DNA from: a virus
Length of the DNA stretch: 25,243 nt
IMG/VR virus record: IMGVR_UViG_3300043411_001619
Coordinates: 1-25,243 of that record
Strand: one strand, 5' to 3'
Translations under genes and position numbers: made by a program
The notes under the pieces: model-generated
What the model saw: the letters and a program-made list of their open reading frames with translations, nothing else
What the model was told of the DNA's origin: nothing
The model's database searches: none
Part shown: piece by piece, positions 1,412-22,900 of the stretch
How positions within the stretch are numbered: position 1 is the stretch's first letter
Layout of the letters: each line of letters opens with the position of its first letter

Positions 1412-1455
1412 TATTATCAATCCAAACACAAGCGAGATACATGAAAGATGAGTAA
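1408..1455 (+). CDS. Possible 15-residue coupling peptide between terminase and next gene
   Basis: An ATG at 1408 overlaps the terminase stop as ATGA and opens a 15-codon frame (MILSIQTQARYMKDE). Its stop overlaps the ATG of the next gene at 1448. It exactly spans the only sizeable gap in this part of the operon, so it could carry terminating ribosomes across to the next start. There is no strong ribosome site and no coding signature, so it may be chance. Confidence 0.2.
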   Translation: MILSIQTQARYMKDE

Positions 1456-1705
1456 ACCCCCATTCCAAACTGATGATTACGGACGAGCTGCGTATCTTGC
1501 TCTCAAGAACTTTCCGTTTCTAGGAGTGGTTGGTAAAAAAGAAGTTTACCGCAAATTATTCATCTTTGAAGACAGCCCTGAACTTAGGCAGGAATCCGAC
1601 AACTGGGAACACAACCTCACAGAAGAAGCTAGTAACTACAAGAAATACTTTATTAAGATTTCATTTATTAAAAAAGCTCTAAGAGAGGAAACCCTAGATG
1701 TCTAA
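1448..1705 (+). CDS. Small DUF5659-like protein
   Basis: This is an 85-residue soluble protein of unknown function. Its pattern FQTDDYGRAAYLALKNFPFLGV near the N-terminus, then LFIFEDSPELRQ (about 38-49), a mid-protein W, and a Lys-rich helical end resembles the small phage/bacterial DUF5659 family (F-x-T-x-D, AAYL, F-x-F-x-D pattern). I judge this by motif memory only. No catalytic motif, signal peptide or membrane segment is seen. The start ATG at 1448 has only weak ribosome-site complementarity and may rely on coupling from upstream. It overlaps the next gene by 8 bases. Its position after terminase suggests a virion or packaging accessory role, but this is inference. Confidence 0.7.
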   Translation: MSKPPFQTDDYGRAAYLALKNFPFLGVVGKKEVYRKLFIFEDSPELRQESDNWEHNLTEEASNYKKYFIKISFIKKALREETLDV

Positions 1706-3944
1706 ACCTACTATTGGTCTGTGTATAATATCGCCCGACAAACCAACCGCTAAACGTGTCATAGACCGCTACAGCCAATATTTCGATGAGGTTTACCTAG
1801 AACTTACTCCTAACATCAAGAACTTTGCTAACGCCCGCAATAAAGGACTCAAGAAAGTCAAGACTCAATACTGGTGCTGGATTGACAGCGACGACGACAT
1901 CAAGAACCCAGAGTCTATACCAAGACTAATAGAGATATTAGAGAAAGAAAACCTAGACGCTGTATACCTACCTTATGAGTATATGAAGAACGAGAACGGT
2001 GATGTGGTGGCTTACCAATGGCGAGAACGAATTATGCGAACTTCTCACCCATTCAAGTGGGTTGGAGCAATACACGAAACAGTTACTAGCAAACAACAGC
2101 CCCAAGCAACTAAAAGCGAGCTAGTGACTATCTCACACAACCACACCGAAGATGACTCTAAGCGTTCCATCGAGCGTAACGCCAAGATATTAGAAGCTGA
2201 GTACAATAAAGCTAAAAAGGCTAAAAAGGAAGTAGACCCAAGGATTCTTTACTACCTAGGCAGAACTCGCTTCGACCAGCAAAACTATGGAGAGTCTATC
2301 AAGATACTTCGGGAGTATATAGCTAGTAGTGGCTGGGACGAGGAAAAGTATTTTGCTCATATAAAGATTGCTGACTCTTTGAGTGAACTAGAGGAGTATG
2401 ACGCCGCAAAAGAGTGGGCGTTACAAGCTATGGAGATACAACCAGACTACCCAGACGCTTATTTGTCTATGGCTAAGGTTTGCTTTATGAGTGACGAACA
2501 CGATAAGTGCTTAGAGTGGATAGGCACCGCTAAAAAGAAAAAAGCCCCCCAGACCCTATCTGTCACCGACCCTACCTTATACACCTACAGACCGTTGGTG
2601 TTGGCGGCGATGTGCCATTTCCTTAAAGGACGTATAGAAAAAGCCTATGAGCTTATAGAGATAGTCCATCAAGAGAACCCTACTTTCAAAGGATTAGAGG
2701 GTACCTACCGACCCATTAAGGACTCTTACTTTGAATTGCAGGTTATCCGCCAAGCTATAACTCTCGGTGAAGTAGTGCAAGCTAAAGGCGACCTCAAAGG
2801 CTACATCAAATCCCTACCAGCTTTTATTAGAAATGACCTACGGCTGAAAGACTTACGGAAAATAGCCTATCCAGCAAGACAATGGGAAGATAACGAAATA
2901 GCTATATTCTGCGGTGAAACCTATAACCCTTGGGGACCCGACACCTTACATGAGGGTATGGGCGGAAGTGAAGAAGCCATTACCTACCTTGCTCCCGAAC
3001 TAGCTAAGCTTGGCTACAAAGTGACTGTTTATAACCAGAGGGAAGATGAGCTAGAGCAAGACGGTGTTACTTGGAAGCCCTGGGAACTATTTAACCCAGA
3101 CGACAAATTCAACGTTTTCATTGGTTGGCGACAACCAGCAACTCCTTACCAGTTAGGCATTAAGGCTAAATTTATAGGCATGGACATGCACGACTACCTA
3201 GTGGGGCATCAACTTGTAACCGACAGAGCTGCTGAATGTATTGATAGGTTTTTCTTCAAGAGCCAATATCAGCGTGAAGCCGCCAAAAACCTGCCAGATA
3301 GTAAAGCAGCTATTATTCCTAACGGCATAGTAAAAAAACAATTTGAGGGCGACATAGATAAACAACCTTTTAGTGTTGGGTACTTTAGCTCCTACGATAG
3401 AGGGCTACCAGTCTTACTAGACATGTGGCCTACGATACGAGAGGCTTGCCCTGATGCCACCCTAGACATAGCCTATGGCTGGGATAGTTTCGATGGTATG
3501 CACAAAGGCAACCCCGAACAACAACGCTGGAAGTGGTCAGTTATTAGAAAACTCAATGAGCTAAAAGATATGGGAGTGCGAGAACATGGCAGACTAAGCC
3601 ACGAAGAACTAGCTCGTCTAATGAAATCAATTAAAGTCTGGGCTTACCCCACCTCATTCAACGAGATTTCGTGCATCACAGCCATGAAAGCTATGTACTC
3701 AGGAATGATTCCAGTAACAACATACAATTATGCCTTGGTTGAAACTCTTGATAAGTTTGGTAAACAGTGGGGGGTTCCATCAATAAACATACATGAGGAC
3801 AAGAAGACTCAAGAACAATTTGTTAAACGAGTGATTGACGCACTAAAAAACGAAGACTATAATACAGACGAGCAGATAAAATACGCCGAGCAGTTTGCTT
3901 GGGAGAAAGTAGCAAAACAGTGGGCAACAGAGTTCGAGAAATAA
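1698..3944 (+). CDS. Tripartite glycosyltransferase: GT2 + TPR + GT4-like
   Basis: This 748-residue fusion contains two sugar-transfer modules. Residues 1-170 are a GT-A (GT2) domain: NARNKG (45-50), WIDSDDD with the metal-binding DxD-type cluster at 63-67, and AIHE (H126/E127). Residues about 180-330 are helical TPR-like repeats (YYLGRTRFDQQNYGES; EIQPDYPDAY). This GT2-plus-TPR order recalls SunS, the sublancin S-glycosyltransferase. Residues about 395-745 are a GT-B/GT4-like domain: MGGSEEAITYLAPELAKLGY, SSYDRG (564-569), and an E-x(7)-type end at NEISCITAMKAMYSG (655-669). The start has GAGAGGAA 7 bases upstream. Two active centres suggest successive addition of two sugars, possibly onto a protein bound by the TPR. 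Sugar donors and acceptor are unknown. Confidence 0.88.
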   Translation: MSKPTIGLCIISPDKPTAKRVIDRYSQYFDEVYLELTPNIKNFANARNKGLKKVKTQYWCWIDSDDDIKNPESIPRLIEILEKENLDAVYLPYEYMKNENGDVVAYQWRERIMRTSHPFKWVGAIHETVTSKQQPQATKSELVTISHNHTEDDSKRSIERNAKILEAEYNKAKKAKKEVDPRILYYLGRTRFDQQNYGESIKILREYIASSGWDEEKYFAHIKIADSLSELEEYDAAKEWALQAMEIQPDYPDAYLSMAKVCFMSDEHDKCLEWIGTAKKKKAPQTLSVTDPTLYTYRPLVLAAMCHFLKGRIEKAYELIEIVHQENPTFKGLEGTYRPIKDSYFELQVIRQAITLGEVVQAKGDLKGYIKSLPAFIRNDLRLKDLRKIAYPARQWEDNEIAIFCGETYNPWGPDTLHEGMGGSEEAITYLAPELAKLGYKVTVYNQREDELEQDGVTWKPWELFNPDDKFNVFIGWRQPATPYQLGIKAKFIGMDMHDYLVGHQLVTDRAAECIDRFFFKSQYQREAAKNLPDSKAAIIPNGIVKKQFEGDIDKQPFSVGYFSSYDRGLPVLLDMWPTIREACPDATLDIAYGWDSFDGMHKGNPEQQRWKWSVIRKLNELKDMGVREHGRLSHEELARLMKSIKVWAYPTSFNEISCITAMKAMYSGMIPVTTYNYALVETLDKFGKQWGVPSINIHEDKKTQEQFVKRVIDALKNEDYNTDEQIKYAEQFAWEKVAKQWATEFEK

Positions 3945-4420
3945 AACTCACTCAGGGGAAAACAGCTTTAGTAGATAAAGATGATTTCAAGCGACTTTCT
4001 CAATATAAATGGCACTACAATAGTCGAGGGTACGCTACACGGCAAGAGTACCTTGGGAAAGTAAATGGTAAGTATAAACAGAAAACTATTTGTATGCACC
4101 GAGAGGTCAACAACACCCCTGTTGGAAAAGACACCGACCATATCAATGGCAACAAGCTAGACAATCGTAGAGAGAATCTTCGGACCTGTAGTCGCTCACA
4201 AAATGTAATGAATGGCTTGCGAACTGGTAAATACACGGGCGTATCGTTCTTCCATAATAAGGCCAGAAACTGGAAAAGATATTCAGCACGGATTACCGTT
4301 GGGCAGAAGACTACATTTATTGGTTATTATAGAACCGCCGAAGAAGCAGCTTTGGCTTACAACGATGTGGCTACAAAGTATCATGGCGAGTTTGCTCGTC
4401 TTAATAAGGTGGGGGGATAA
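3920..4420 (+). CDS. HNH homing-type endonuclease with AP2 domain, no ATG start
   Basis: This is a selfish HNH nuclease of the type common in phage genomes, which nicks or cuts DNA at a target site and spreads by repair. The N-terminal EIKLTQGKTALVDKDDF motif opens the family. An HNH core follows (MHREV; DHINGNKLDNRRENLR), then a C-terminal AP2 DNA-binding domain (GVSFFHNKARNWKRYSARI ... FIGYYRTAEEAALAYN). No ATG exists at the N-terminus. The options are GTG at 3920 (used here), TTG at 3899, or ATA at 3941, which would give the family-like opening (M)KLTQGK. The gene overlaps the upstream glycosyltransferase by 25 bases or more and stops 1 base before the next ATG. Identity is firm; the start is not. 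Confidence 0.85.
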   Translation: MGNRVREIKLTQGKTALVDKDDFKRLSQYKWHYNSRGYATRQEYLGKVNGKYKQKTICMHREVNNTPVGKDTDHINGNKLDNRRENLRTCSRSQNVMNGLRTGKYTGVSFFHNKARNWKRYSARITVGQKTTFIGYYRTAEEAALAYNDVATKYHGEFARLNKVGG

Positions 4421-4421
4421 A

Positions 4422-5147
4422 ATGAGATTAGCGGCTCTAGCAGTAGCGTATAAAGAAGAACGCTTTATACCAAAGTACATACAATCTTTGCAAGATAGGG
4501 TAGACGAGATTCTAGTATTAAACAGCATCAAGCCGTGGCACGGTGAACGAGCCAAAGATGACAAAACAGCCAAAATAGCTGAGAGTCTAGGAGTTTCAGT
4601 TATACAGTACAGTTGGGACACCGAAGAAGAACAGCGTAACTGGGGGTTAGATTTTCTACAAGACTATGACTGGGTGCTAGTGCTCGACCCTGATGAATAT
4701 TTAACCGAAGACCAATGGTTAGCTCTGTATGACTGGTTAGATAAAGGTGGGGACCCAGTAGACGCCTACGTTTGTGCACAACAAAACACTTACTGGAAGA
4801 AAGGGTTCATTATCGACCCCCAAGAAGATTACAAACAGATAATAGCTGTCAAGCCTCATGTTAGGTTTATAGACAAAAGAGTAGTTAATTGTGCATGGGC
4901 TCATGCCCCAGTAACACTAGAACATTTTTCATGGGCTCGGACAGATGAAGAAGTCTGGGATAAAATAACTCACTACGGACACGCTAATGAATTTGATACC
5001 GAAAAGTGGTTTAATGAGGTGTGGAAGACAGATAGAACAGAAGACCTGCACCCCTTAACACCATCAGCATTAAAAAAAGCAATCAGGGTTCAACTCCCTG
5101 AAGAATTGGAGAAACTACAACTATGGCCCAATCAAAACAAGAGCTAG
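4422..5147 (+). CDS. GT2-family glycosyltransferase
   Basis: This 241-residue enzyme probably transfers a sugar from a nucleotide donor in the cytoplasm. The N-terminus LAALAVAYKEERFIPKYIQS is the usual GT2 opening strand and helix. DEILVLNS (28-35) is the nucleotide-binding strand, and WVLVLDPDEYLTEDQW carries the metal-binding D89-P-D91. I chose ATG 4422 because the domain begins there and GGTGGGGGG lies just upstream; the same frame extends back to 4212 through the HNH gene but makes no sense there. The C-terminal 90 residues include several Trp and His. It lies 1 base after the HNH gene and overlaps the methyltransferase by 25 bases. Donor and acceptor are unknown. Confidence 0.85.
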   Translation: MRLAALAVAYKEERFIPKYIQSLQDRVDEILVLNSIKPWHGERAKDDKTAKIAESLGVSVIQYSWDTEEEQRNWGLDFLQDYDWVLVLDPDEYLTEDQWLALYDWLDKGGDPVDAYVCAQQNTYWKKGFIIDPQEDYKQIIAVKPHVRFIDKRVVNCAWAHAPVTLEHFSWARTDEEVWDKITHYGHANEFDTEKWFNEVWKTDRTEDLHPLTPSALKKAIRVQLPEELEKLQLWPNQNKS

Positions 5148-5623
5148 AGGACTGGTATTCTAAAACAGACCCGTGGGGTTACAACGACAACTCAGACGAT
5201 AAAGTTAGAAAACAAGTTATTCTTGACGCAATTAGCCCATACGCACCATTCAAACGGGCATTAGATATAGGTGCTGGTGAGGGATTTATCACAAAAGATT
5301 TGCCAGCTAAAGAAATTGAAGCTATTGAAGTGTCCGATTCAGCCTCAGAGCGTCTACCGAGCCATGTAAAGCGAGTTAAGAAACCTACTGATAAATATGA
5401 CTTAATCATACTGACAGGCGTGTTATACGACCAATACGAGGGTCAGAAGATGCTAGATTGGGCAAAAGAACATTGTGATGGGATAATCCTAACTTGTAAC
5501 ATTAAAGACTGGGAAGTGAACCCCCTACCAAACGACAATTTAGTACATAGATACGAATTTCCGTACAGAACATATACTCAAAGTTTGAAGGTATACAAGT
5601 GGTCTGGGTCTTCCACAGAGTAG
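5123..5623 (+). CDS. SAM-dependent methyltransferase (NodS/class I type)
   Basis: This is a 166-residue class I methyltransferase. LEDWYSKTDPWGY (8-20) is the N-terminal motif shared with NodS-like and sugar methyltransferases. ALDIGAGEGFIT (46-57) is SAM motif I, EAIEVSDSASERL (66-78) the ribose-binding region, and YDLIILTGVLYDQY (92-105) motif IV. It is shorter than usual but contains all core strands. NodS methylates a de-N-acetylated chitooligosaccharide, and here the next gene is a NodB-type deacetylase, so a deacetylate-then-methylate sequence on an amino sugar is an attractive inference. It overlaps genes on both sides by 25 bases. Small-molecule or protein substrates cannot be excluded. 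Confidence 0.85.
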   Translation: MAQSKQELEDWYSKTDPWGYNDNSDDKVRKQVILDAISPYAPFKRALDIGAGEGFITKDLPAKEIEAIEVSDSASERLPSHVKRVKKPTDKYDLIILTGVLYDQYEGQKMLDWAKEHCDGIILTCNIKDWEVNPLPNDNLVHRYEFPYRTYTQSLKVYKWSGSSTE

Positions 5624-6063
5624 GCGACGAGGGCGAATATACCGACCCAATAGATAAAATCCTCGAATGTGAGGGTGAAATAACTTTTGATGGTGTGTAC
5701 ACCTCTGTCTTTGACCACCGCCATCTGTTAGCTAAAAGAATGCCAATCCTGTTTGTAACAGGTAATCAGATAGGCAGAGATGGATTTTGCAACCGAGAGC
5801 AACTTTTAGAACTGACACGTTTAGGTTTTGTTCTCGGTTGGCATGGCTGGAGCCACGATAAACTAACTGAACTTAGCGAAGACCGCATCTTAGCCGAACT
5901 CCATAAGCCAGATTGGGTAAGCAACATCTACGCCTACCCGCATGGTGACTTTAACGACACCGCAAAAAAGTGGCTAAAGAAACTGGGTTACACAAAAGCT
6001 TACTCAACCACACAAGGAGATGATGATGTCTATAGCCTCAGACGTAGCTATTTGCAAAGTTAA
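5599..6063 (+). CDS. NodB-type polysaccharide deacetylase, compact variant
   Basis: This 154-residue protein matches the NodB homology fold, which removes N- or O-acetyl groups from glycans with a metal ion. Motifs are ITFDGVYTS (28-36, D31), ILFVTGNQIG (50-59), GWHGWSHDKL (80-89, H82 and H86, the H-x3-H metal pair) and YAYPHGDF (111-118). Canonical enzymes read T-F-D-D-G; here one Asp is absent (T-F-D-G), as I recall in some polysaccharide-cluster relatives, so the metal site should still hold one Asp and two His. The start is GTG at 5599; no in-frame ATG precedes the fold. It overlaps the methyltransferase by 25 bases and the dioxygenase by 38. No signal peptide is seen, so action is cytoplasmic. 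Confidence 0.82.
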   Translation: MVWVFHRVGDEGEYTDPIDKILECEGEITFDGVYTSVFDHRHLLAKRMPILFVTGNQIGRDGFCNREQLLELTRLGFVLGWHGWSHDKLTELSEDRILAELHKPDWVSNIYAYPHGDFNDTAKKWLKKLGYTKAYSTTQGDDDVYSLRRSYLQS

Positions 6064-6643
6064 TGGCTTTGCAAGAGTAAAAAACGTCTTTACCAAGCAA
6101 GAAGTCAGCGACATGCGAGCTAAAGCCATTCTGTCTATGAGAGGTAGCCCAGAAGTGGAGATACTAAAGGGTTATCCAACAATTCTGTACCACCCCTCAG
6201 AACTTAATGAGGTAGTTAATGACCCCCGTCTACAAGAGATAGTTAAGGAATACTACGGTGATGTACCGTTTCACCTAGAAACCCAGCAGTTTTACTTCCA
6301 CCTACCAGGCGACCCAGACGAGTTCGCTTGGCATACAGACGAAAGGTTCAGACCAGGCGTGGGTAATCTTTACTTACAGACCGCCATTCTTATAGACGAC
6401 TGGGCAGAGGATAATAGTGCGGTGGAGTTCATTAAGGGTTCACATAAGAAACCGTTCACTAATAGTGGCGACCTACGAAAGTTCGAGAGGAACGGCTTGA
6501 AGGGGACTAAGTTATTTGGTGAAGCTGGCGATGTTTTTACATGGAGTAATACTGTAGTTCATGGTTCTGAAAGCAACCAAGGTAAAAATAGCCGAATGTA
6601 TTTTATGCACGGCTTCAGAGGAGCGGAACTCAGTGAGTGCTAG
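6026..6643 (+). CDS. Phytanoyl-CoA dioxygenase-like Fe(II)/2-oxoglutarate oxygenase
   Basis: This 205-residue protein has the PhyH-family jelly-roll pattern. WHTDERF contains the iron-binding H-x-D (H103, D105). VVHGSESN gives the distal His (H179), and NSRMYFMHG gives the Arg (R190) that binds 2-oxoglutarate. The opening VNGFARVKNVFTKQEV is also typical. Such enzymes hydroxylate or oxidise C-H bonds using oxygen and 2-oxoglutarate. Three ATGs are in tandem at 6020, 6023 and 6026; I chose the third because AAGGAG at 6014-6019 is then 6 bases away. Lying among glycosyltransferases, it may modify a sugar, a lipid-like carrier or a protein side chain; the sequence does not decide which. Confidence 0.85.
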   Translation: MSIASDVAICKVNGFARVKNVFTKQEVSDMRAKAILSMRGSPEVEILKGYPTILYHPSELNEVVNDPRLQEIVKEYYGDVPFHLETQQFYFHLPGDPDEFAWHTDERFRPGVGNLYLQTAILIDDWAEDNSAVEFIKGSHKKPFTNSGDLRKFERNGLKGTKLFGEAGDVFTWSNTVVHGSESNQGKNSRMYFMHGFRGAELSEC

Positions 6644-7202
6644 TATCACGATAAATATAGTCAGTTACAGATATGGGCATTTGGTTGCTCATTGTCTTGA
6701 GAGCGTGTTAGGGCAAACAGTTAAGCCAGATGTTATACGAGTTTACGATGATGGAGTGGGCGATTGTCGCCACATCAAACAACTTTACCCAGAAGTAGAG
6801 TTTATTGAACGTAAAGGTAACTTAGGTATCATAGCCAACTTCAACCAAGCCTTAAATAGAACCGACACCGAAAGAGTTATGTTTTTAGGTGCCGATAATT
6901 GGCTGGCACTCGACGCCATAGAAAAATTAAAAGATGTTGAGGGCGATATAGTTAGTTACGATGGTTGGATATGGGGTAATGGGCATAATGAACTCTGGCA
7001 CCTACCCAATCAACCACATGGTTCAGCACTTTATAATGTTAAAAAAGCTAAAGAAGTTGGTGGTTACTCAGCTAGTGGCAACGTCCACACAGAAGAAGAT
7101 TCAGTAATGTTTAATAAGATGCGTGAGGCAGGGGCTACATTTACCCACGTTTCAGAACCTCTTTTCTTTTATCGTAGGCACAGGAGTAACTTTAACCAAT
7201 GA
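6633..7202 (+). CDS. GT2-family glycosyltransferase
   Basis: This 189-residue GT-A enzyme opens with SITINIVSYRYGHLVAHCLESVL-type sequence, the usual GT2 start, followed by VIRVYDDGVGD (34-44), in which the DD binds the nucleotide, and RKGNLGIIANFNQAL (60-74). The metal motif position is FLGADNW (84-90), so the DxD is degenerate to A-D-N. HTEEDSVMFNKM near the C-terminus fits the catalytic-base (E/D-D) region. The start is GTG at 6633 with AGAGGAG 9 bases upstream; an upstream in-frame start at 6561 would lie inside the dioxygenase gene. It overlaps that gene by 11 bases and the next by 4. Donor and acceptor are unknown. Confidence 0.82.
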   Translation: MSASITINIVSYRYGHLVAHCLESVLGQTVKPDVIRVYDDGVGDCRHIKQLYPEVEFIERKGNLGIIANFNQALNRTDTERVMFLGADNWLALDAIEKLKDVEGDIVSYDGWIWGNGHNELWHLPNQPHGSALYNVKKAKEVGGYSASGNVHTEEDSVMFNKMREAGATFTHVSEPLFFYRRHRSNFNQ

Positions 7203-7804
7203 TAACTTACGCAACCAAATGCTGGAGTGGCGATTACGATAAGGTTTGGTCTTATCACCCTAACGCTGATTTAGTAGTGGGTAATAATATGTCCCCTGAT
7301 GAAATAAAGAAAGCTAGAAAAATATACAGAGATAGGTTTGTTTATGCTGGCGAGGGGCATGCTTATACTCTTGGAGAAAGATTTGCGGTAGACAATATCC
7401 ACACGGGTTACATCTTGTGGTATGCGGGTGATGTCACACCACCAAAAGAAGATTGGACAAAAGTAGCCATTAAGTTACTAGACAAATACCCGATAGTTTC
7501 ACCTTTTATGCAAGAGAACTGGGAGAACGTAGTCGGGACAGCTATAAGAGAAGAATATGGGGGTTTTGAACTAACTGATTTTGGTTATGAAGACCATTTC
7601 TTTTCTGACCACGCCTACTTTGCCAAAGTGAGTACAATGAAAAATATTGATTACGAACTAGACCACCCCATAAAAGCTAGATACCCTAGTCATGGAGAGA
7701 ATAGTTTTGAGAGGCGTGTAGCACAATGGTTGAGTGTGACGGGCAATAAGAGAGCAGTATTAAAAGATTATAGATATAGGCACACCCCAAATAATGAAAA
7801 GTAG
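7199..7804 (+). CDS. Probable GT-A-like glycosyltransferase
   Basis: This 201-residue protein is less clearly a glycosyltransferase than its neighbours. Supporting marks are the short N-terminal strand (MITYATKCWSGDYDKVW), a central ILWYAGDVTPPKEDW in which an Asp follows a hydrophobic strand as in the DxD region of GT-A folds, and a His/Asp-rich later section (FSDHAYF; YPSHGENSFERRV). No P-loop, signal peptide or membrane helix is visible. ATG 7199 overlaps the previous stop as ATGA, and AGGAG sits about 11 bases upstream. Context, between two GT2 genes, is the strongest argument. It might instead be a sugar-modifying protein of another fold. Confidence 0.65.
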   Translation: MITYATKCWSGDYDKVWSYHPNADLVVGNNMSPDEIKKARKIYRDRFVYAGEGHAYTLGERFAVDNIHTGYILWYAGDVTPPKEDWTKVAIKLLDKYPIVSPFMQENWENVVGTAIREEYGGFELTDFGYEDHFFSDHAYFAKVSTMKNIDYELDHPIKARYPSHGENSFERRVAQWLSVTGNKRAVLKDYRYRHTPNNEK

Positions 7805-8372
7805 CATGATAATCCCTAACTTATGGGCTAACGAAGAACTTTTGGATATGACTATTGGTTGTATCAAGGGGGCGTATCAAGTTGTAGACGAGATGTTAAT
7901 AATCAACGACAACCAATCCTACGCTAAGAATGTTAATAAGGGGCTAAGAGCTTGCACAGGAGATTACATAATCATCTGCAACAATGACATCAGCTTTGTT
8001 CAACCCGACTGGTTAGACCACTTACTAAAACCCCTACAAGAGGGTTACGACATATCCAGTATTCGCACTACCGATGGAGATGGCTGGGAAACAGAGGACA
8101 AGATAACCGAGGGCGATAAGTTCGGTAGTATTTGGTGCATGAAGCGTGAGGTATACGAAAAAGTGGGGCTATTAGACGAATCCTTTGGGAACTATTTTGA
8201 AGACTTGGACTACCACAAGAGAGCTGAAAATGAGGATTTTAAGGTTGCTAAGAATCACGCAGGATTAGTTGAGCACCAAGGCAAAGCCACATCAAAGACC
8301 ATCGACCCCGAAGATAAGGCGTATAATAAAGCTATGGAAATATATAGACGGAAGTGGGGAAAAGTAGAATGA
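7794..8372 (+). CDS. GT2-family glycosyltransferase (rhamnosyltransferase-like)
   Basis: This 192-residue GT-A enzyme has clear GT2 motifs: MIIPNLWANEELLDMTIGCI (5-24), EMLIINDNQSYAKNVNKGL (33-51), and IIICNNDISF (59-68), where N-N-D replaces D-x-D as in many bacterial rhamnosyl- and galactofuranosyltransferases. GLLDESFGNYFEDLDYHKRA (near 133-152) is the acceptor-side motif with the E-D-x-D catalytic pair. ATG 7794 overlaps the previous gene by 11 bases; a second ATG at 7806 directly after that stop is an alternative. The end overlaps the GT-B gene as ATGA. Of all the single-domain transferases here, this has the most complete active site. Confidence 0.87.
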   Translation: MKSSMIIPNLWANEELLDMTIGCIKGAYQVVDEMLIINDNQSYAKNVNKGLRACTGDYIIICNNDISFVQPDWLDHLLKPLQEGYDISSIRTTDGDGWETEDKITEGDKFGSIWCMKREVYEKVGLLDESFGNYFEDLDYHKRAENEDFKVAKNHAGLVEHQGKATSKTIDPEDKAYNKAMEIYRRKWGKVE

Positions 8373-9286
8373 ATATTAGCTTTTTAGTAAATCCAGTAGT
8401 AGATGGTTGGAAGCCTACAGACACACGGCTCGGTGGCACCGAAGAATCAGTGGTACGCTGGGCAGAAGAACTATTTGACCGTGGTCACTCAGTTAGAATA
8501 TACCAAAACGGTTTTGTAGGTAGTTATAACCAAGTCACCTACTACCCACGAGAAGAGTATTTGAACCGTGCTTATAATGGCTGGGCAGACGTTTGTATAA
8601 ACATAAAGTCGCCAGAGGTTAGCCCTAAAGAACTTACTTTCTACCTGACTAACGAAACTGATGCTACAAGACTAGACTTATCAGCTTATAAAGCAGTTAT
8701 ATGGCCCAGTAAATGGGCGAACGACAATATTCCAGTAAACAACAAAACAGTTATCCTGCCCCACGGCTATGACAGCGAGAAAATCAAGCCAAGTAAAAAG
8801 ATTAGCAAACAAGTGTTATACGCCAGTTCACCAGACAGAGGCTTAGACTTGCTACTAGCTTGCTGGCCTAGTGTCTACGAAGCACACCCTGACGCTAATT
8901 TAATAGTTACTTATGGGGCACCAGCTCAGGATATACCAGGAGTTACATTCTTAGGCGAAGTGGACGAGGGTATGATGAATGAACTATATGCTACAAGCGA
9001 CGTATGGGCACACCCATGCTCTGGGGGAGAGTTATACGGCATAACGGGCATAAAAGCCCAAGCAAGCGGTTGTGTGCCTGTTTATATACCAACCATGGCA
9101 CTAGCCGAGACAGTTAGGCACGGCGTGGCTTGTGATGAGTTTAATTTTAGGGATAGACTTATACAGACTTTGGGCAACGAAAAGCTGAAAGCTAACATAC
9201 GAGAGCAATTAAGTAAAGAAGATTTTGTTGACTGGAAGAAAAGTACGACTATACTAGAGAATATAATAGGAGCTAATAATGGCTGA
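8369..9286 (+). CDS. GT4-like (GT-B) glycosyltransferase
   Basis: This 305-residue GT-B-type enzyme has an N-terminal lobe with LGGTEESVVRWAEELFDRGH (21-40), the usual G-G-x-E acceptor-side motif, a linker around NNKTVILPHGYD (124-135), and a donor-binding lobe with YASSPDRGLDLLLACWPSVY (151-170), FLGEV (194-198) and GGELYGITGIKAQASG (219-234). It is compact for the family. It looks paralogous to the last third of the fusion gene at 1698: the same G-G-x-E-E start, the same DRGL helix and the same P-DA-L strand recur in order. ATG 8369 was chosen over a GTG at 8354 because it overlaps the previous stop as ATGA and starts exactly at the first strand. Confidence 0.86.
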   Translation: MNISFLVNPVVDGWKPTDTRLGGTEESVVRWAEELFDRGHSVRIYQNGFVGSYNQVTYYPREEYLNRAYNGWADVCINIKSPEVSPKELTFYLTNETDATRLDLSAYKAVIWPSKWANDNIPVNNKTVILPHGYDSEKIKPSKKISKQVLYASSPDRGLDLLLACWPSVYEAHPDANLIVTYGAPAQDIPGVTFLGEVDEGMMNELYATSDVWAHPCSGGELYGITGIKAQASGCVPVYIPTMALAETVRHGVACDEFNFRDRLIQTLGNEKLKANIREQLSKEDFVDWKKSTTILENIIGANNG

Positions 9287-9626
9287 TAAAACAGAAATAG
9301 TAGTAGAAAAAAAAGAAAAACCAGTAGAAGTACCGCACGACGCCCCTACATCATCAGAGCCAGATTTATCTTCTTTTCAGAGTATGTTAGGGCTCTCAGA
9401 GCCGAACACCCAAGAAAAAGACCAATTAAAAACAATATATGAGTGGGTTTACAGTAAGACTGAAGCAAAGACTATGCCCTCACTGATGATGGCTCTAAGG
9501 GGCTTTGAGAATAGATTATCCGCCCCCAAACTAGGTGAAACTAGATTAGGCAAGTTATATCACTATGTAAAAGCACAAAAGACAGTAGAGGAGGCTGAAA
9601 AGTGGCGGAACAGTCTACTATCTTAA
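9279..9626 (+). CDS. Hypothetical phage protein, 115 residues
   Basis: I do not recognise this gene. The first 40 residues are charged and Pro/Ser-rich (KKEKPVEVPHDAP), probably disordered. The rest is predicted helical, with MPSLMMALRGFENRLSAPKLGETRLGKLYHYVKA-like spacing of hydrophobic residues and a final EEAEKWRNSLL. No Cys and no membrane segment are seen. ATG 9279 has AGGAG 8 bases upstream and overlaps the glycosyltransferase gene by 8 bases. It marks the change from the carbohydrate block to the structural block, so it may be a small virion-associated or assembly protein; this is inference. Confidence 0.7.
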   Translation: MADKTEIVVEKKEKPVEVPHDAPTSSEPDLSSFQSMLGLSEPNTQEKDQLKTIYEWVYSKTEAKTMPSLMMALRGFENRLSAPKLGETRLGKLYHYVKAQKTVEEAEKWRNSLLS

Positions 9627-9769
9627 ATGCTACTATTTTGGTAGAATTTGAAACAGATGGTCATGTAGTCAAATTGCCACTCCATACATTATTCAAAGAA
9701 CTTGACCTCAAAGTAACAGAACAAAAACTAACAAAAACTGTACAAGAAATGGTAGAACAAAATGGCTGA
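9602..9769 (+). CDS. Small 55-residue hypothetical protein
   Basis: GTG at 9602 begins a 55-codon frame (MAEQSTILNATILVEFETDG...) that ends in TGA 9767-9769. Support is the strong ribosome site AGAGGAGG at 9587-9594, spaced 7 bases from GTG, and tidy overlaps: 25 bases with the gene before and 8 with the gene after. The first half is strand-forming with alternating hydrophobics (TILVEFETD, VVKLPLHTL). The second half is a charged helix (KVTEQKLTKTVQEMVEQ). I know no function. It directly precedes the Thr-rich structural protein and could be a chaperone or partner for it, as an inference from position alone. Confidence 0.65.
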   Translation: MAEQSTILNATILVEFETDGHVVKLPLHTLFKELDLKVTEQKLTKTVQEMVEQNG

Positions 9770-11180
9770 ATTAAGTGGCAACAACGCCAATCAAAGAGGA
9801 CAAGACGAACACTATAAGAAAACAAAAAAAGTAACAGTCTATTTTTACGATACTTCCAACGACGTACCGATAAGAGTGTCTAGCACCAACCCCTTGCCTA
9901 TATCAGGGACTTTAAGCGGTGGTGGCGATGGGGCTATATTAGATGGAGCTGACTCTGCAATAAAAGCCACCGTTAAAGACCTGACTAATTCAAACCCTTT
10001 GACTACTGCACTTGTAGATGCAAATGGCGACCAAATAACCTCTTTCGGTGGGGGTACTCAGTATACAGAAGGCGATACAGACGCTTCTTTCACTGGAACA
10101 ATCTCATTAGTAGAGGGGGCGGCCAACGCAGCAGTAACCTTGAAGCAACCTACTCAACCGACAGATACTCAACCAATCTCGGCTAATGCATTACCCCTAC
10201 CAACAGGTGCGGCGACAGCAGCAAACCAGCAAACCGACGCACTTACAGATACAGAACTCCGAGCCACACCAGTACCAGTATCAGGTACGTTTTACCAAGC
10301 AACTCAACCTGTCAGTGGAACGGTAACAGCTAACGCAGGCACAAATCTAAATACCTCTGCTCTAGCTACAGAAGCAGGCAACCTAGCTACGATTAAAACC
10401 AATACCGATAAAATACCCTCACAAGGGCAAGCTCTGGCAGCAGCCTCAACCCCTGTAGTACTCCCAGCAGCCCAAATAACAACCCTAACTCCACCAGCAG
10501 CAATAACTGGATTTGCTACTAGTGCCAACCAAGCAACAATTATCGGTCACGTTGATGGGATAGAAGCTGCTGTAGACGGTATTGAAACCCTCGTAGGGAC
10601 AACTAACACCACGCTCACAACAATAGATGGCAGGGTAGACGGACTAGAAACCTTAGTAACTTCTACGAACACAAAGCTCGATACAGCTAATACTAGCTTA
10701 GGAACATTAGATAACGCTATCTCAGGCAACGAAATGCAGGTAGACGTAGTTGCTTCCTTACCTGCTGGAACAAACAACATAGGTGACGTTGATGTTCTCT
10801 CACTCCCAGCACTCCCAGCAGGAACAAACGCTATCGGTAAACTATCAGCCAACTCTGGCGTAGATATTGGAGATGTGGACGTAACTAGCTCTGTATCGTC
10901 AACTCTCGACCACGGCTCAAACCTCGATATTGATACTACCGCAGAGCAGATAACTACTACATCATTTGCAGCTAAGTTTGGGGTAACGGTCAAATCAGCA
11001 GTAGACAACACAGGCACGGTCTACATAGGCAATTCAGACGTCACTGCTGGGACCACCGCAGCCACAGATGGTTTCCCACTAGAGCCTGGTGAGTCGATAA
11101 CCTTACCTGTAAACAACTCCAATTTGTTATATGCCATTGGTGCAGCAGCAAACCAAAAGGTATTCTGGAGTGCTGTCTAA
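9762..11180 (+). CDS. Thr-rich fibre/decoration-like virion protein
   Basis: This 472-residue protein is rich in Thr (about 73 by my count, near 15%), Ala, Ser and Asn, with no Cys. It is built of short phage-fibre-type phrases: NPLPISGTLSG, TQPVSGTVTAN and PLPTGAATAANQ recur in adhesion and neck proteins of many phages. Residues about 265-330 form coiled-coil-like heptads (VDGIEAAVDGIETL, DGRVDGLETL, NTKLDTANTSLGTLDN). A later segment repeats LPAGTN-x-IG and IGDVDV. The last 70 residues (VYIGNSDVTAGTTAATDGF, LEPGESITLPV) form a beta domain common at the ends of phage structural proteins. I infer a trimeric, surface-exposed fibre or head decoration. It is the best candidate acceptor for the upstream glycosyltransferases. 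Confidence 0.75.
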   Translation: MAELSGNNANQRGQDEHYKKTKKVTVYFYDTSNDVPIRVSSTNPLPISGTLSGGGDGAILDGADSAIKATVKDLTNSNPLTTALVDANGDQITSFGGGTQYTEGDTDASFTGTISLVEGAANAAVTLKQPTQPTDTQPISANALPLPTGAATAANQQTDALTDTELRATPVPVSGTFYQATQPVSGTVTANAGTNLNTSALATEAGNLATIKTNTDKIPSQGQALAAASTPVVLPAAQITTLTPPAAITGFATSANQATIIGHVDGIEAAVDGIETLVGTTNTTLTTIDGRVDGLETLVTSTNTKLDTANTSLGTLDNAISGNEMQVDVVASLPAGTNNIGDVDVLSLPALPAGTNAIGKLSANSGVDIGDVDVTSSVSSTLDHGSNLDIDTTAEQITTTSFAAKFGVTVKSAVDNTGTVYIGNSDVTAGTTAATDGFPLEPGESITLPVNNSNLLYAIGAAANQKVFWSAV

Positions 11181-11659
11181 TGAGTAGTTGGCACACCGCT
11201 AAACCAAGGATGATTCATTCTGTTGATACTAACGTAACAGTTACTGAGTTCTTTGGCAGTGCTGTAAACCTTGGGACTGGTGGCTCTTGTAGAGTAGACG
11301 CTCTTGAAGACAGTGAGAGAATAAGGTTAAGAATACAGATAACCTTTGGCACGAGTATGAGCATCGGTTCATTGCCTATTACGATACTTGCTTCAGACAT
11401 GCCTGTAACTATCCCTGATTTTGGAGACCAAGTTGCACAACCTGGCAACTTCGGTGCGATGTCTACCTCTGGTGGCGGTAACGAGATGTGGGTGCCAGCA
11501 CTTAATAATGTTTCTGGTCATGGTAACAGCATCTTATTTTTCAATTCGTATGGGGCGTCATTCACGAACTTTTTATTGGGTTCAGCAGTCACCCATCCAC
11601 CTGTAGCTGGAAGTATACTATTTAGTACTATAGATATATATAAGAACATGATGGGGTAA
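11180..11659 (+). CDS. Hypothetical beta-rich structural protein, 159 residues
   Basis: I do not recognise a family. The sequence is rich in Gly, Ser, Thr, Asn and Phe with alternating hydrophobics (RIRLRIQITFGTSMSIGSLP; NSILFFNSYGASFTNFLLG), consistent with a small beta-sandwich. It has one Cys and no membrane helix or signal. Its ATG uses the last base of the preceding TAA (TAATG), so it is tightly coupled to the Thr-rich protein and may be its partner, for example a tip, clamp or decoration protein. This role is inferred from composition and coupling only. Confidence 0.68.
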   Translation: MSSWHTAKPRMIHSVDTNVTVTEFFGSAVNLGTGGSCRVDALEDSERIRLRIQITFGTSMSIGSLPITILASDMPVTIPDFGDQVAQPGNFGAMSTSGGGNEMWVPALNNVSGHGNSILFFNSYGASFTNFLLGSAVTHPPVAGSILFSTIDIYKNMMG

Positions 11660-11832: not shown

Positions 11833-13761
11833 ATGCCAAACAAAAGCTATATGAAACAAAAAAAAGGAAGCGACAACGGAGAGTTTACTTCTGTTGCCCA
11901 GATGTGGCAAGAACGCTACACCAAAGCTCAGACTAATCAAGAAAAATTATTTAAGCGATTTAGCGAGTGGTACGACATGCTTTACGCAGTCATAGACACC
12001 GCTACATTCGCCCCATGGAGAAGTAAGGTATACATACCAATAATGGCTACTAAGTGTTGGAATATGGTGGCTAAGTTTACCCAGCAAAAGCCAGGGTTTG
12101 AAGTAGATGTAAAAGATGATGGTCCTGATACGGAGGAACCAGCTTTAGACGCAACTGAGAGAGAAAAACTATCAGACAAGGTTGCTAAAAAACTAGAGAG
12201 CGATTGGGATAATCCTAGATTTGAAGAACCTATGCGAGATAAATTATTTAGTCCTCTTGTAGATGCTACTGTCACAGGAACGGGTATGGCTAAAGTGGTG
12301 TGGCGAACAAAGAAGCACGTTTCTAAATCTCACCCCCTAGACGAATATGATGAAGTAGATTACGAAAACGACGTAGTGACTACCGAATCTGTTAGTTATA
12401 ACGACTTAGAGCCAGTAAATATTTTTAACGTATTTATCGCTCCAGCCGCTATTAGCTTACAATCTGCACCTTGGATAATTATTAGAGAGTTTAAGTCTTG
12501 GGCTGACTTGAAAGCCGTTAATGACGCATCAGACGCCCCTATATACAAGAACCTAGACTCTATTAAAGGAACAGGTGCCAAGAGCGATAAAGATGCTCGT
12601 TATAACCGTTCACGCAACAGACTGACTAATGAAGAAGACCCAATCAGTGCCGACCAAACAGTAGACCTTATTGAGCTATTTGAGTGCTACGAACGCTCTA
12701 GTAATAAGATTTGTACTTATGTAGCTACTTCTGCCGAACAAACAAAGAAAACACAGTGGATATTAATAAGAGAACAGACTAATCCTTACTGGCATGGTAG
12801 ATACCCACTAGTAGACTTTCATATTCGCAAACGACCTTTCCAGTTCTGGGGTGAGGGTATATTTGAAACTACTCAAAGATTACAAGCAGCCGCTAATGAC
12901 ATTTTTAACCACTACCTAGACAACTGGAACCTATCAGTTGATGGTGGAATAATGATTGACGAAACCAGCCGAGTGAACGACTTTATGGTTGAACCAGGCT
13001 TTGAATTAGTCTACTCAGGCGAAAAACCAACTCAATTTAAGTTCCCAGAACCAAACCCTAACCAGCTAACTCTAGTGATGACTGAGATACAAAAAGCGTT
13101 AGAGGACTCTACAATCTCTAACTTCGCTACAGGAGCACCACACTCAGGACTAGACAAGACGCAAGGTACAGCTACAGGTATAATTCGACTCCAAGAAGCA
13201 GCTAACGACATAATTAGCTTCATGCGAGACAACTACCAACAGTCTATTAAAGAAATTACTCGTATGTGGTTATCCAATAACCGTCAGTTTATGACCGAGG
13301 AGTTTGAAACAATGAGCTTGCAGGGCAACGAAAAGACTCTTGAAAAACTGACACCAGTAGAGATGCAATTCCCAATGGAAGTCAAGGTTGATGACATAGA
13401 CATGCAACCAGTCTCTAAGCAAGAAAAGAGAGCCAACTTCTTAGAGTACCAGAACAGTTTAATGGGATTGCAACAAAGTAGCTTACAACAGGCTCAGATA
13501 GACCCTAGCACCCCACCAGTAATCTTGGACTTCGCACAACTGGCACAAGAACTAGGACAATCGTTCAATGTTAAGAACTTTGAGAGATTTACGTTAGCAG
13601 CCAAAGCACCAGCTATGCCTGAGCAAGGTATGCCACCTGAAGGCGAAATGCCCCCAGAAGAAGGTGATTTGACAGAATTACCAGACGAAGGGCTACCAGC
13701 AGAAGATGAAGATTTAGACGCACAGATAGAACAAGCACTAATGGAACAAGGGATTGAATGA
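11833..13761 (+). CDS. Portal protein
   Basis: This 642-residue protein forms the dodecameric ring at the capsid vertex, through which DNA enters and leaves and to which terminase and tail bind. The length and features fit podovirus-type portals. An N-terminal YDMLYAVIDTATFAPWRSKV helix-loop lies near residues 47-66. The clip/stem region GEGIFETTQRLQAAAND is near 340-356, and the second helical region GLDKTQGTATGIIRLQEAAN near 439-458. The C-terminal 50 residues are acidic and Pro/Gly/Met-rich (MPPEGEMPPEEGD), probably disordered. AAAGAGAAA precedes the ATG; a second ATG at 11851 is possible. It overlaps the next gene by 4 bases (ATGA). Confidence 0.9.
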   Translation: MPNKSYMKQKKGSDNGEFTSVAQMWQERYTKAQTNQEKLFKRFSEWYDMLYAVIDTATFAPWRSKVYIPIMATKCWNMVAKFTQQKPGFEVDVKDDGPDTEEPALDATEREKLSDKVAKKLESDWDNPRFEEPMRDKLFSPLVDATVTGTGMAKVVWRTKKHVSKSHPLDEYDEVDYENDVVTTESVSYNDLEPVNIFNVFIAPAAISLQSAPWIIIREFKSWADLKAVNDASDAPIYKNLDSIKGTGAKSDKDARYNRSRNRLTNEEDPISADQTVDLIELFECYERSSNKICTYVATSAEQTKKTQWILIREQTNPYWHGRYPLVDFHIRKRPFQFWGEGIFETTQRLQAAANDIFNHYLDNWNLSVDGGIMIDETSRVNDFMVEPGFELVYSGEKPTQFKFPEPNPNQLTLVMTEIQKALEDSTISNFATGAPHSGLDKTQGTATGIIRLQEAANDIISFMRDNYQQSIKEITRMWLSNNRQFMTEEFETMSLQGNEKTLEKLTPVEMQFPMEVKVDDIDMQPVSKQEKRANFLEYQNSLMGLQQSSLQQAQIDPSTPPVILDFAQLAQELGQSFNVKNFERFTLAAKAPAMPEQGMPPEGEMPPEEGDLTELPDEGLPAEDEDLDAQIEQALMEQGIE

Positions 13762-15190: not shown

Positions 15191-16087
15191 ATGGCCGAAT
15201 TTACATATAATGATAACGCTATTCGTGAGGACCTTGCAGACATAATTACCAACCTAAACCCAACTGATTACCAGTTGTACACAGGTCTTGGTAAGACTTC
15301 TGCTAAGTCTACACTCCACGAATGGCTAACAGATACTTACAAAACTGTAGGTACTAACGCACAAGTAGAAGGATTTACTCCAAGCTACGCCGCAAGGACT
15401 CGACCAGCAAGAGTTCGCAACCACACGCAGATTATTTCTGTAGACGTTGAAGTTACTGACACAGAACGTGCAGTAGACCAAGCTGGATTTGCTGATAGAT
15501 ACTCATACGAGCTTGACAAAGCTATGGTTGAGTGGAAGAACGACGCTGAATACGCTCTTATGCGTGGTGCAAGCGACGTTACTGGTACAGGTTCAGCAGC
15601 TCGTTACATGGTGGGAATCAAGGGTGCGATTACAACAGTCGTAACTAACCCATCAGGTGTTTCGCTAAGTGAAAACATGTTCAACGACTACCTAAACAAC
15701 GTTTGGAACACTTCTAAAGAAGTAGTAGACGAAGTTTATGTCGGTGGACCACTAAAGCGACGTATTTCAGGCTTTACAGCAGGAAGTACAAAGAATGTAG
15801 ACGCAGAGGACAAGCGATTGACAAACTCTGTAAATGTTTACGAATCAGACTTTGGTATCGTGAAAGTGTTCTTACACCGACACGTTAGCATCGCTGGTAC
15901 AGATACTAACAACGATATGGTTGGTATCAAGAACGACCTATTTAAGGTCGCTCACCTAGAAGGACGAACTCCTAAGCACGTTCCACTTGCAAAAGTTGGT
16001 TCGACAACTAGGGGCATGGTCGAGGGTGAACTTACCCTTGAATACCGAAATCAACTCGGTGCCTTCAAAACTACTGGCTTGCTATAA
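15191..16087 (+). CDS. Major capsid protein (DUF5309/SU10 family)
   Basis: This 298-residue protein is the shell-forming capsid subunit. It matches the DUF5309/SU10-type HK97-fold family: an N-terminal DLADIITNLNPTDYQLYTGL, the STLHEWLTDTY motif (about 40-50), a spine-helix region with RYSYELDKAMVEWKNDAEYA (about 98-117), a VYVGGPLKRRIS segment, and a C-terminal HLEGRTPKHVPLAKVG typical of the A-domain end. AAAAGGAAA precedes the ATG. Codon choice is more uniform (many GGT, GAC, AAC, CGT) than in the carbohydrate genes, as expected for the most highly expressed virion gene. A hairpin follows 12 bases after its stop. Confidence 0.9.
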   Translation: MAEFTYNDNAIREDLADIITNLNPTDYQLYTGLGKTSAKSTLHEWLTDTYKTVGTNAQVEGFTPSYAARTRPARVRNHTQIISVDVEVTDTERAVDQAGFADRYSYELDKAMVEWKNDAEYALMRGASDVTGTGSAARYMVGIKGAITTVVTNPSGVSLSENMFNDYLNNVWNTSKEVVDEVYVGGPLKRRISGFTAGSTKNVDAEDKRLTNSVNVYESDFGIVKVFLHRHVSIAGTDTNNDMVGIKNDLFKVAHLEGRTPKHVPLAKVGSTTRGMVEGELTLEYRNQLGAFKTTGLL

Positions 16088-19915: not shown

Positions 19916-22900
19916 ATAGGTTTCTTTGATAGCGTAAAACGCTTTGGACAAGGAGTATACAACCAAGTTCGCATGGGCGAAGGTAAGACTTTTAGTGATG
20001 CCTATAATACCCCTGAAGAAGAGCGTAGACGACGAGCGAGGGAAGCTGCTAAACAAGCCCCACAAACTCAGCGACCCCAAAATACTCAGTATGTTAATGG
20101 GTTAGTATCTGGTGGGGGCGTAAGAGCCCAAGAAGACCGTAGGCGTGAAGTAGCCAGAAACGCCGCTCGTCAACAGGTACAAAATCCTATTGGTGGTTTC
20201 CTATCTGGGGTACTAAGCAAAGGTAAAGATGTAGTTGACCTAGCTCAAAAAGGCGTAGAGTTTAACGTAGATTTATTAAAAAACCCTGAAAAGCTAGTAG
20301 ATGCTGGTGAAACAGCTAGAAAAGCTATTATTAATGCCACCCCTCCAGCCCAACTTTATAATCGAATCAGAACAGACCAAAGGGTTCAAAAGAATAGGCA
20401 GGAAGTAGACCAAGCCGAACAACGCATAAATAGCCAGCTTAAAGAGCAAACAGGTGGGCAAGTAAGCGACCTAACCTCGGCAATAAAAACTCTATCCGCT
20501 AGACGTAGCGAACTAAGCCCCGAAGGAAAGAAGTCTTTATTAAGTTTACTAGATATAAATAGGCAACTAGCAGGGGCTAGGCAACAAACTGAAGAAGTAA
20601 ACCTACAAAACGTAGACCCAGTAGGCATATTAGAAGATGCTTTATTCACTGGGGGGCAACCTGTAGCTGATATGGCTAGAGAGCTTAGTGCTAGAGGTGG
20701 GGCTAGAATTGTTAAAGAGTTGGAGGACAACAGACTAGCTAAAGCGATGGTGCCGTTCATAGGAGAGACATCAAAGGGTATAGATATTGCACAAGGAAGC
20801 AACCTTGGTAAGTTTGTATTTGGTAGGGGTAAAGTAGATAAAGCATCAGATGATATTAAAAGCTTCACTAAAGACATACCAATCCTTAGAGATATATTCA
20901 AATACGCTCCCCTAGCAACAGCAGGTGGTATCGCTATTAACCTACCTGGAATTGGTGGGACTAAGGCTGGTAAATTTGCAAAAGCATCTAAGGAATTATC
21001 TTTAGTAGATAATGTTGACGATGTTGTAAAAGTAATTGGTAAGTATGATGATTTGAATAAGTTGTTTGGTGAGGTGGACGACACCCTCAAACCAATACTA
21101 CTAGAACGCCTAGCCAAAGAAACAAAACCTAAAGAGATACAAAAATCAATAAGAGGTTCACTAGAAGCAACAAAACGACTCCAACTAGAAGCCCCACAAG
21201 TAGGTAAGACAGACCCACTAGAATCCCTAAAGGGAGAGGCTAAAGACATCAAGACTAGAACTATCAAGACCGCAGACGGTAAGAATGAATATGTTGCTCA
21301 GTTAGGCAATAAAGTAACCGACAGAGTAGGCAGAGAAACAGGGTTCAAAGCCACCGCCACATCTCCAAACTTCAAGTCCGAAGGTGAAATGCAGAAATGG
21401 ATTAGCCAGAACATAGATAACCAATCCACAGCCCCTAAGACAAAGGGAGTAGCCCCTCAACCTACTAAGACAGACCCCCTAGACTCCCTAAAAGCAGAGG
21501 CTAGGAAGTATAAGAGTGCTGCAGACTACCAGTACACTACAGGCGACCCAAAGATTGACGCACAAATCAAACAAGTAGCTGAAATGTCACCCGATGAGTA
21601 TCTGAAGCAAGCGTTTGAAGCTACAGACGGGAAACTAGGTGGGTCTTACGACTCGTGGCTTAAATCCAATGCTCAAGATGCTATGGTGGCTAAGAGATAC
21701 GCTGAAGCTATGCAGAATGGCGACAAGTTCCCAATTGCTTACATAGATAAGGCTATGGGTTCACAAGATGGTCGCAACCGAGCATTGGCAGCAAAGCTAG
21801 CTGGGCGTGACAAAATGCCCGTTGGTATAATCCCCGAAATGACTACAGCAGAGAAAATAGCATTTGCCGAAGCACAGATAAAAAAATATCCCGAAAAGAG
21901 TTACTTAGGTAATAAGTATCGTCGTGAACTTACCAACCTCTACAACCAAGCCACCCAACCCCCTAAGGGTGTGGACAATACTCTTGATGAACTACAAAAC
22001 CTCCAACCAGAAGAAATAGCCAAAATAGATGATTTAGCTAAACAAGCTGGATTTAAGGGGTTAGATGATGTGGCTCAATCCCTAAAACCTAAAGCTGTTA
22101 GTGATATAAGTGAGGCAACCCCACCCAAGACTCCTGTAGACGTTGTGAGCGACGTTAAGAATGAAGTTACTCTTGCACCTAGAACCACAGACCAAGCTGT
22201 TAGAGAGATTGCTGGAGCGTTAGGCAGGGACATTGGTGAGGTAGATGAAAGCCTAGGCACATCTGCAAAAGCTATAAGTGCTGTAACGGGTGGCAAGTTT
22301 ACCAACACCAGAAAACTAAACCCATTTAGACTACTCTCGGATTATCTAGGTGGGGGAGTGGCAAAACAGGGCGAAAAAGCTATAACAGGTAAAGGCTCTA
22401 AGACGTTAAGGGGTATCGAGGGCTTTTTTGGTGGTGCTGGGCGAACTGCTAACGTTAAACAGATACCTAGACAGTTTGAGGGACGACTTGCTAACATTGG
22501 TGACCTAGTAGGCAAAGCCAACAAAGAGTCCAACCGTATACTTGATAGCATTAAAGACGCTAGAAAACAGTTAGACCTTGTAATGCGAGATAAAGCATAC
22601 ATAAAAAGAGTGTATGGCGATGGTGCGGAAAAACTATCTCCTGACAACTTGCCTCCTAAGCTGAAGAAAGTCTACGAACAATACACGGACGCTAACAAGG
22701 TGGTAAACGACATCAACTTGCAGACTAAAGTCATAGACAAAGCTCAGTGGCTTGGTGGCACCAAAGGTCAACATATTGCTCGTAAGTTTGATATACCTAA
22801 AGGCGAAAAAGAAGTTATTAGGGACCACGTTAGAGCTTTATTTGACCAAACAGCAGGGGTTAAACGTAAGGATATATCTAAGTTTGAGGACGAGTTAATC

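Follow-up and report, generated by a model that had tools for sequence, protein, structure and literature searches.

The window analysed here is a 25,243-base record of an uncultured tailed phage (IMG/VR IMGVR_UViG_3300043411_001619), in which a cassette of glycosyltransferase and putative sugar-tailoring genes (1698-9286) lies between the large terminase gene, terL, at the left end, and the portal gene (11833-13761; PHROG portal), which forms the right border; the major capsid protein (MCP) is encoded at 15191-16087, and further virion genes are present. The original prediction described ten consecutive overlapping genes, and all ten open reading frames (ORFs) were recovered, each on the plus strand. 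The first, GT_A (1698-3944), encodes a three-part glycosyltransferase of 748 amino acids (GT2-TPR-GT4; Pfam), and is followed by an HNH_3 nuclease (3899-4420; Pfam and PHROG HNH) and by GT_B, a GT2-family transferase (4422-5147; Pfam) with a 323-bit homologue in the related locus L024. The predicted overlap fails between these last two: the GT2 frame is listed from 4212, but the ATG at 4422 is the likelier start, so that the HNH gene and GT_B abut, 1 nucleotide apart. There follow four genes that we call the quartet (5123-7202), encoding a NodS-like S-adenosylmethionine (SAM)-dependent methyltransferase (5123-5623), a polysaccharide deacetylase-like protein of NodB/CE4 fold (5599-6063; Pfam Polysacc_deac_1), a PhyH-type Fe(II)/2-oxoglutarate dioxygenase (6020-6643) and GT_C, of family GT2 (6561-7202; Pfam). 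The cassette closes with a GT-A-fold transferase without a Pfam family (7199-7804), GT_D (GT2, 7794-8372) and GT_E (GT4, 8354-9286, with a likely start at the ATG at 8370), the latter two assigned by Pfam and conserved, in L024 and L004, throughout what we define below as class A. Gene overlaps run beyond both ends of the cassette (1448-1705 with 1698; 9279 with 9286), so that the block forms an integral part of the array of late genes; sites found by promoter and terminator scans were no more numerous than in shuffled sequences.

The predicted count of six glycosyltransferase genes, one of them double, holds. Five (1698-3944, 4422-5147, 6561-7202, 7794-8372 and 8354-9286) score above the cut-offs of GT2 or GT4 Pfam models, and the sixth, 7199-7804, matched nothing in Pfam, PHROG or NCBIfam, so that its assignment depends on structure. 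Its AlphaFold2 (AF2) model, built from five sequences, is of moderate confidence (mean pLDDT 61, pTM 0.65), and the top solved matches are GT-A glycosyltransferases (Foldseek E 2e-5, VIA Z 12.8), with matches overall being mostly GT-A enzymes, plus some nucleotidyltransferases of related fold. In both GT4 domains (1698-3944 and 8354-9286), a lysine appears by eye to replace the second glutamate of E-x7-E (NEISCITAMK, GELYGITGIK). The GADN motif of GT_C is invariant in its 14-member family.

Genes of the NodS-, NodB-, PhyH- and HNH-like families were likewise present as predicted. The methyltransferase matches Pfam weakly, below cut-off; its family profile finds NodS (3ofj, E 2e-6) as the best solved match and its glycine-rich SAM motif is conserved, while a score of 18.3 bits against the NCBIfam NodS equivalog (cut-off 300) indicates distant homology only. 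The dioxygenase exceeds the PhyH cut-off (57.9 bits against 22), its profile best matches EctD (E 4e-19), and its iron triad (H105-x-D107, H181) and 2-oxoglutarate-binding R192 are invariant in 13 aligned sequences. The AF2 model of the NodB-like protein (pLDDT 91.9) places it in the CE4 fold, with VIA Z scores of 16.8 to PplD, 16.4 to IcaB and 15.2 to PgaB, and its HxxxH motif (H82, H86) is invariant in 22 sequences; by fold we thus regard it as NodB-like, and as a putative deacetylase. The CE4 pseudoenzyme BA3943 is also among its structural matches. A further match, to 8qpg, the Haloferax tailed virus 1 turret protein (VIA Z 10.7), suggests that a deacetylase-like domain occurs in a virion protein.

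A portal search returned 27 loci from IMG/VR, together with a close GenBank record, and the genes upstream of the portal were read in these to place the cassette in context. TerL is visible in 17 of the portal relatives; of these, 12 carry glycosyltransferases between TerL and portal (L006-L013, L016, L018, L022 and L030, of which L008 and L009 are near-copies of each other) and five have an empty slot (L026 and L033 being near-copies). A filled slot is thus normal for the window's clade and unusual relative to phages in general, so that the block is as exceptional as first supposed only in the latter comparison; the idea that it is unique to the window phage was dropped, as the slot is usually filled among portal relatives. 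In class A (the window, L024, and L004, the contig of which begins within its cassette), the transferase cassette is followed by a gene of 112-115 amino acids, by serine/threonine (S/T)-rich virion-type proteins and by the portal; L024, with a portal 54% identical to that of the window, is the closest relative. In class B (L016, L017 and L030), a fused GT_A and one methyltransferase precede the small gene seen in class A (9279-9626, plus strand, in the window; phmmer homologues in L004, L016, L017, L024 and L030), which is again followed by S/T-rich proteins and the portal. Class C (L005-L013, L018 and L022) comprises the N-terminal half of GT_A, GroEL, the C-terminal half of GT_A, a methyltransferase and the portal, and in class D (L025-L028 and L033) one gene of ~90 amino acids alone separates TerL from portal. 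In the portal tree, classes A and D each form one clade and group together (support 92/64), and class B is scattered. The GroEL gene between the GT_A halves was confirmed by Pfam in L022 (35734-37302, minus strand), and a GroES-like (Cpn10) gene lies immediately after the fused GT_A of L016. The final gene before the insertion point (1448-1705, plus strand) encodes a small protein that most relatives, cassette-free ones among them, also encode after TerL; its homologues are weak phmmer matches (17-18 bits) in L012 of class C and in the empty-site loci L026 and L033, and are matched by position and size elsewhere.

GT_A is the gene common to filled relatives, as a homologue is present in every filled slot visible in full; homologues also occur downstream of MCP in L021, L023 and L063. 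L024 keeps GT_A, GT_B, GT_D and GT_E, and carries two different methyltransferases in place of the quartet and 7199-7804. L004 has a gene of the 7199-7804 type, homologues of which also lie near GT_D in L021, L063 and L065, and its methyltransferase is 52% identical to one from L024. Retention of the outer transferases around variable inner genes indicates that the former constitute a frame, inside which genes are exchanged. The HNH gene, which had been counted as a member of the glycan cassette, does not belong there: it contributes no glycan chemistry, and is missing between GT_A and GT_B in L024. It is probably a free-standing homing endonuclease that inserted between these genes, outside the glycan pathway. 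The sole listed start of the HNH ORF (TTG 3899) falls inside the 3' end of GT_A, and the C-terminal part of its product looks AP2-like by eye.

The inner quartet has a distribution of its own. One GenBank phage, MW202801 (our locus L034), matched the window PhyH, NodB and methyltransferase proteins, and was the only INPHARED record to match any of the three; no INPHARED record matched 7199-7804 or GT_C. A single-sequence scan of IMG/VR with PhyH found no match, but a methyltransferase profile did find relatives, in 26 IMG/VR loci and one contig of a metagenome-assembled genome (MAG). Clustered at 90% methyltransferase identity, with the window and L034 included, the quartet family comprises 21 clusters, and in all 21 the methyltransferase is directly followed by NodB (with an ORF of 73 amino acids between them in L043). 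PhyH is adjacent in most clusters, accompanied by a transferase that belongs either to the GT_C type or to another GT2 type. The GC content of contigs carrying the quartet spans 0.31-0.67. Gene order identical to the window was seen in L038 and L039, which also encode the closest proteins found (PhyH 61-62% identical), and a sugar epimerase gene accompanies the quartet in L035, L042, L046, L060 and L061 (one Pfam-confirmed). The MAG contig, L035, is from Chloroflexi and was considered as a cellular relative, then rejected, as its genes by eye look phage; the genome scan for the methyltransferase used two peptide patterns, which leaves room for cellular relatives. The quartet is a portable phage operon that recurs in many unrelated phages. 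We found no description of it in the open-access literature, most subscription papers lying outside the search.

In eight clusters (the window, L034, L038, L039, L042, L043, L060 and L061) the quartet sits among virion genes. The cassette of L034 is directly downstream of MCP; MCP or a head protease precedes the quartet, and a tail terminator follows it, in L038 and L039; and in L042 it lies between MCP and tail genes. In L061 and L043 it occupies the interval that separates TerL from a phrog_10963-family portal, and sharing of the window's slot despite an unrelated portal looks like convergence, whereas in L060 it immediately precedes TerL and portal. This survey of context covers the clusters other than L035, L036, L040, L041 and L059.

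From this arrangement, we consider it probable that the cassette specifies a virus-encoded, soluble pathway, which acts in the cytoplasm late in infection to decorate a virion protein; acceptor, sugar, reaction order, cytoplasmic location and late timing are elements that we infer from the genes. Direct cytoplasmic glycosylation of a virion protein had been favoured at the outset, and the lack of a membrane partner, together with virion-module homologues in unrelated phages, speaks for it, while the acceptor is deduced and quartets on the recA side of other genomes speak against. The observation behind that proposal was itself sound: none of the cassette proteins contains a hydrophobic region of the sort expected for membrane segments or signal peptides, and neither GtrA nor the flippase Wzx was detected in any of 20 related records (controls positive), three of which are complete circular genomes, the genome of the window phage itself being incomplete. 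GT_A, GT_B, GT_D and GT_E, the shared frame, would build the glycan, and the inner quartet would act as an exchangeable module, in which GT_C adds a sugar, the NodB-like protein removes an N-acetyl group, the NodS-like enzyme N-methylates the freed amine and the PhyH enzyme hydroxylates the sugar. The expected product is a deacetylated, N-methylated and hydroxylated amino sugar on a virion protein, with a probable benefit in shielding or adhesion. The acceptor is most likely an S/T-rich surface protein from 9762-11659, or the capsid. This interval encodes, on the plus strand, an acidic, probable virion surface protein with 23% S/T (9762-11180), our candidate acceptor by composition, and a second probable virion protein with 20% (11180-11659). 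Relatives of classes A and B encode different S/T-rich proteins at the same position, and the virion-type neighbours in these classes are mostly 19-32% S/T, compared with 10-13% in portals; as such proteins follow the block, they are the first acceptor candidates. We are more tentative about a broader proposal, to which we give somewhat less than an even chance, that the methyltransferase-NodB-PhyH-transferase set is a phage-specific shared operon, which places a novel N-methylated, hydroxylated amino sugar on the virions of many unrelated uncultured phages.

Several observations weigh against the proposed virion-decorating pathway. The strongest argument against a role tied purely to virions is the position of the quartet on the replication side of other genomes: in L046 (9998-12351), from a WhiB-carrying phage group, it precedes a gene of UvsX/RecA type and a primase gene; L051, L054 and L055, of the same group, have by eye the same recA-like start, on the replication side and not among virion genes; and L044, L045, L049 and L050 appear to resemble L046. 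In class C, transferases fill the slot, yet no S/T-rich block is adjacent, and a high S/T content is common in beta-rich virion proteins that bear no glycans. The window is moreover a 25-kb fragment of its genome. Lastly, motif 1 of CE4 enzymes, TFDDG, provides a catalytic aspartate plus a metal-ligand aspartate, and the NodB-like family reads FDG, not TFDDG or FDDG, in 22 of 22 sequences, one aspartate thus missing. As FDG is fixed across the family, it does not reflect decay in the window. The original scheme of a glycan first built and then tailored stands as a synthesis and tailoring block, with a putative deacetylation step.

Phages are known to glycosylate DNA, T4 being an example, and we accordingly weighed hypermodification of DNA, in which a hydroxymethyl-type base would be glycosylated, and the sugar deacetylated, methylated and hydroxylated, in protection against host nucleases. 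In one group the quartet adjoins recA/UvsX-type and replication genes; the 2-oxoglutarate dioxygenase, and the radical SAM gene of L034, could act on bases; and DNA glycosylation has been proposed for transferases of freshwater actinophages (PMC10202952). The enzymes expected to prepare such bases were, however, scarce in the 20 related records: thymidylate synthase/hydroxymethylase (PF00303) was absent from all, with positive controls, TET/JBP (PF12851) was absent from all in a search that had no working control, and a C5-methyltransferase was found in only one. As virion genes also surround the cassette in the window and in seven other clusters, we regard this explanation as unlikely.

Alteration of host surface glycans during infection, whether to exclude superinfecting phages or to mask receptors, in the manner of serotype conversion, has precedent in that many phage glycosyltransferases act in this way, and the deacetylase fold resembles IcaB, PgaB and PplD, which act on cell-surface polysaccharides. 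These three enzymes work outside the cytoplasm, whereas the NodB-like protein has no export signal, and the absence of membrane segments from the cassette, and of GtrA and Wzx from the related records, is equally at odds with action at the cell surface. Location among virion genes argues in the same direction, as does the rarity of integrase (three of the 20 related records, and ~15 kb from the cassette in L034); a block beside host-surface or lysogeny genes, the arrangement that would have told against virion glycosylation, was not found. We therefore judge host-surface modification to be distinctly improbable. That the genes are cargo without a dedicated virion role, mobile sugar genes hitch-hiking with the HNH endonuclease as mover, would fit the HNH gene within the block, the differing interiors of the window, L024 and L004, and the existence of empty sites, but is very improbable given that no filled slot visible in full lacks GT_A, that HNH is absent from the L024 block, and that the methyltransferase-NodB pair recurs in 21 of 21 clusters with conserved putative active-site residues, which argues for selection.

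Other features of the window bear less directly on the cassette. TerL is read as two plus-strand ORFs (7-762 and 755-1411; PHROG terminase), which overlap at ATGTTTAG, with a frame jump within a linker at 727-757 that reflects either a sequencing indel or a real split; both halves are 64-65% identical to the single intact TerL (490 amino acids) of L030. An ORF of 1757 amino acids (19973-25243) continues past the right-hand end of the window and has no Pfam match; it probably encodes a polyvalent protein or an internal protein of the virion. A window portal profile found no relative in 85k bacterial and archaeal genomes, and hence no prophage or host. WhiB occurs in two of the 20 related records and in none from the window's clade, so that an actinobacterial host is unsupported for the window phage.

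Glycosylation of phage virions is already known, even if, to our knowledge, glycosylated particles have been documented in only a few isolates, and the most interesting part of the present findings is the portable methyltransferase-NodB-PhyH-transferase operon. A phage clade here carries a multi-enzyme pathway as a fixed part of its virion gene set, a sister clade with empty sites is available for comparison, and the core genes recur in 21 sequence clusters of uncultured phages of broad base composition. It thereby becomes testable whether the coating of virions with tailor-made sugars is common among environmental phages, and whether the module predicts which ones.

Among known systems, GtrABC serotype conversion shares with the window cassette phage-borne glycosyltransferases, but differs in that no GtrA flippase was found in the 20 related records, and no membrane protein in the cassette. 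The pairing of a deacetylase with an N-methyltransferase recalls rhizobial NodB and NodS of Nod factor synthesis; the window proteins are not orthologous to these, the NodB-like protein being nearest PplD, IcaB and PgaB and short of one motif-1 aspartate. The chlorovirus PBCV-1 glycosylates its capsid in the cytoplasm with virus-encoded enzymes (PMC5408694). The likeness lies in machinery that is mostly or wholly virus-encoded, in cytoplasmic action and in a capsid protein as target, PBCV-1 being a large algal virus and not a tailed phage. As far as we know, the established PBCV-1 pathway includes no NodB-PhyH set.

The GenBank phage MW202801 (ctQWt234, Manatee Spring) carries transferase, PhyH, methyltransferase, NodB and transferase genes directly after MCP, with methyltransferase and PhyH proteins 48% and 42% identical, respectively, to those of the window, and differs in gene order, slot, an extra radical SAM gene and an integrase. 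That radical SAM/SPASM gene (L034 19640-20704) heads its cassette. Mycobacteriophages Che8 and Rita are reported to have glycosylated capsids (Freeman et al. 2023 and others, as cited in PMC11256854); in them phage-encoded glycosyltransferases are linked to glycans on virion proteins, a link that for the window phage is predicted from its genes. In the related phage Maravista the transferases lie towards the 3' terminus of the genome (PMC11256854), whereas the window has six transferases, together with a deacetylase-like protein, a methyltransferase and a dioxygenase, encoded between terL and the portal.

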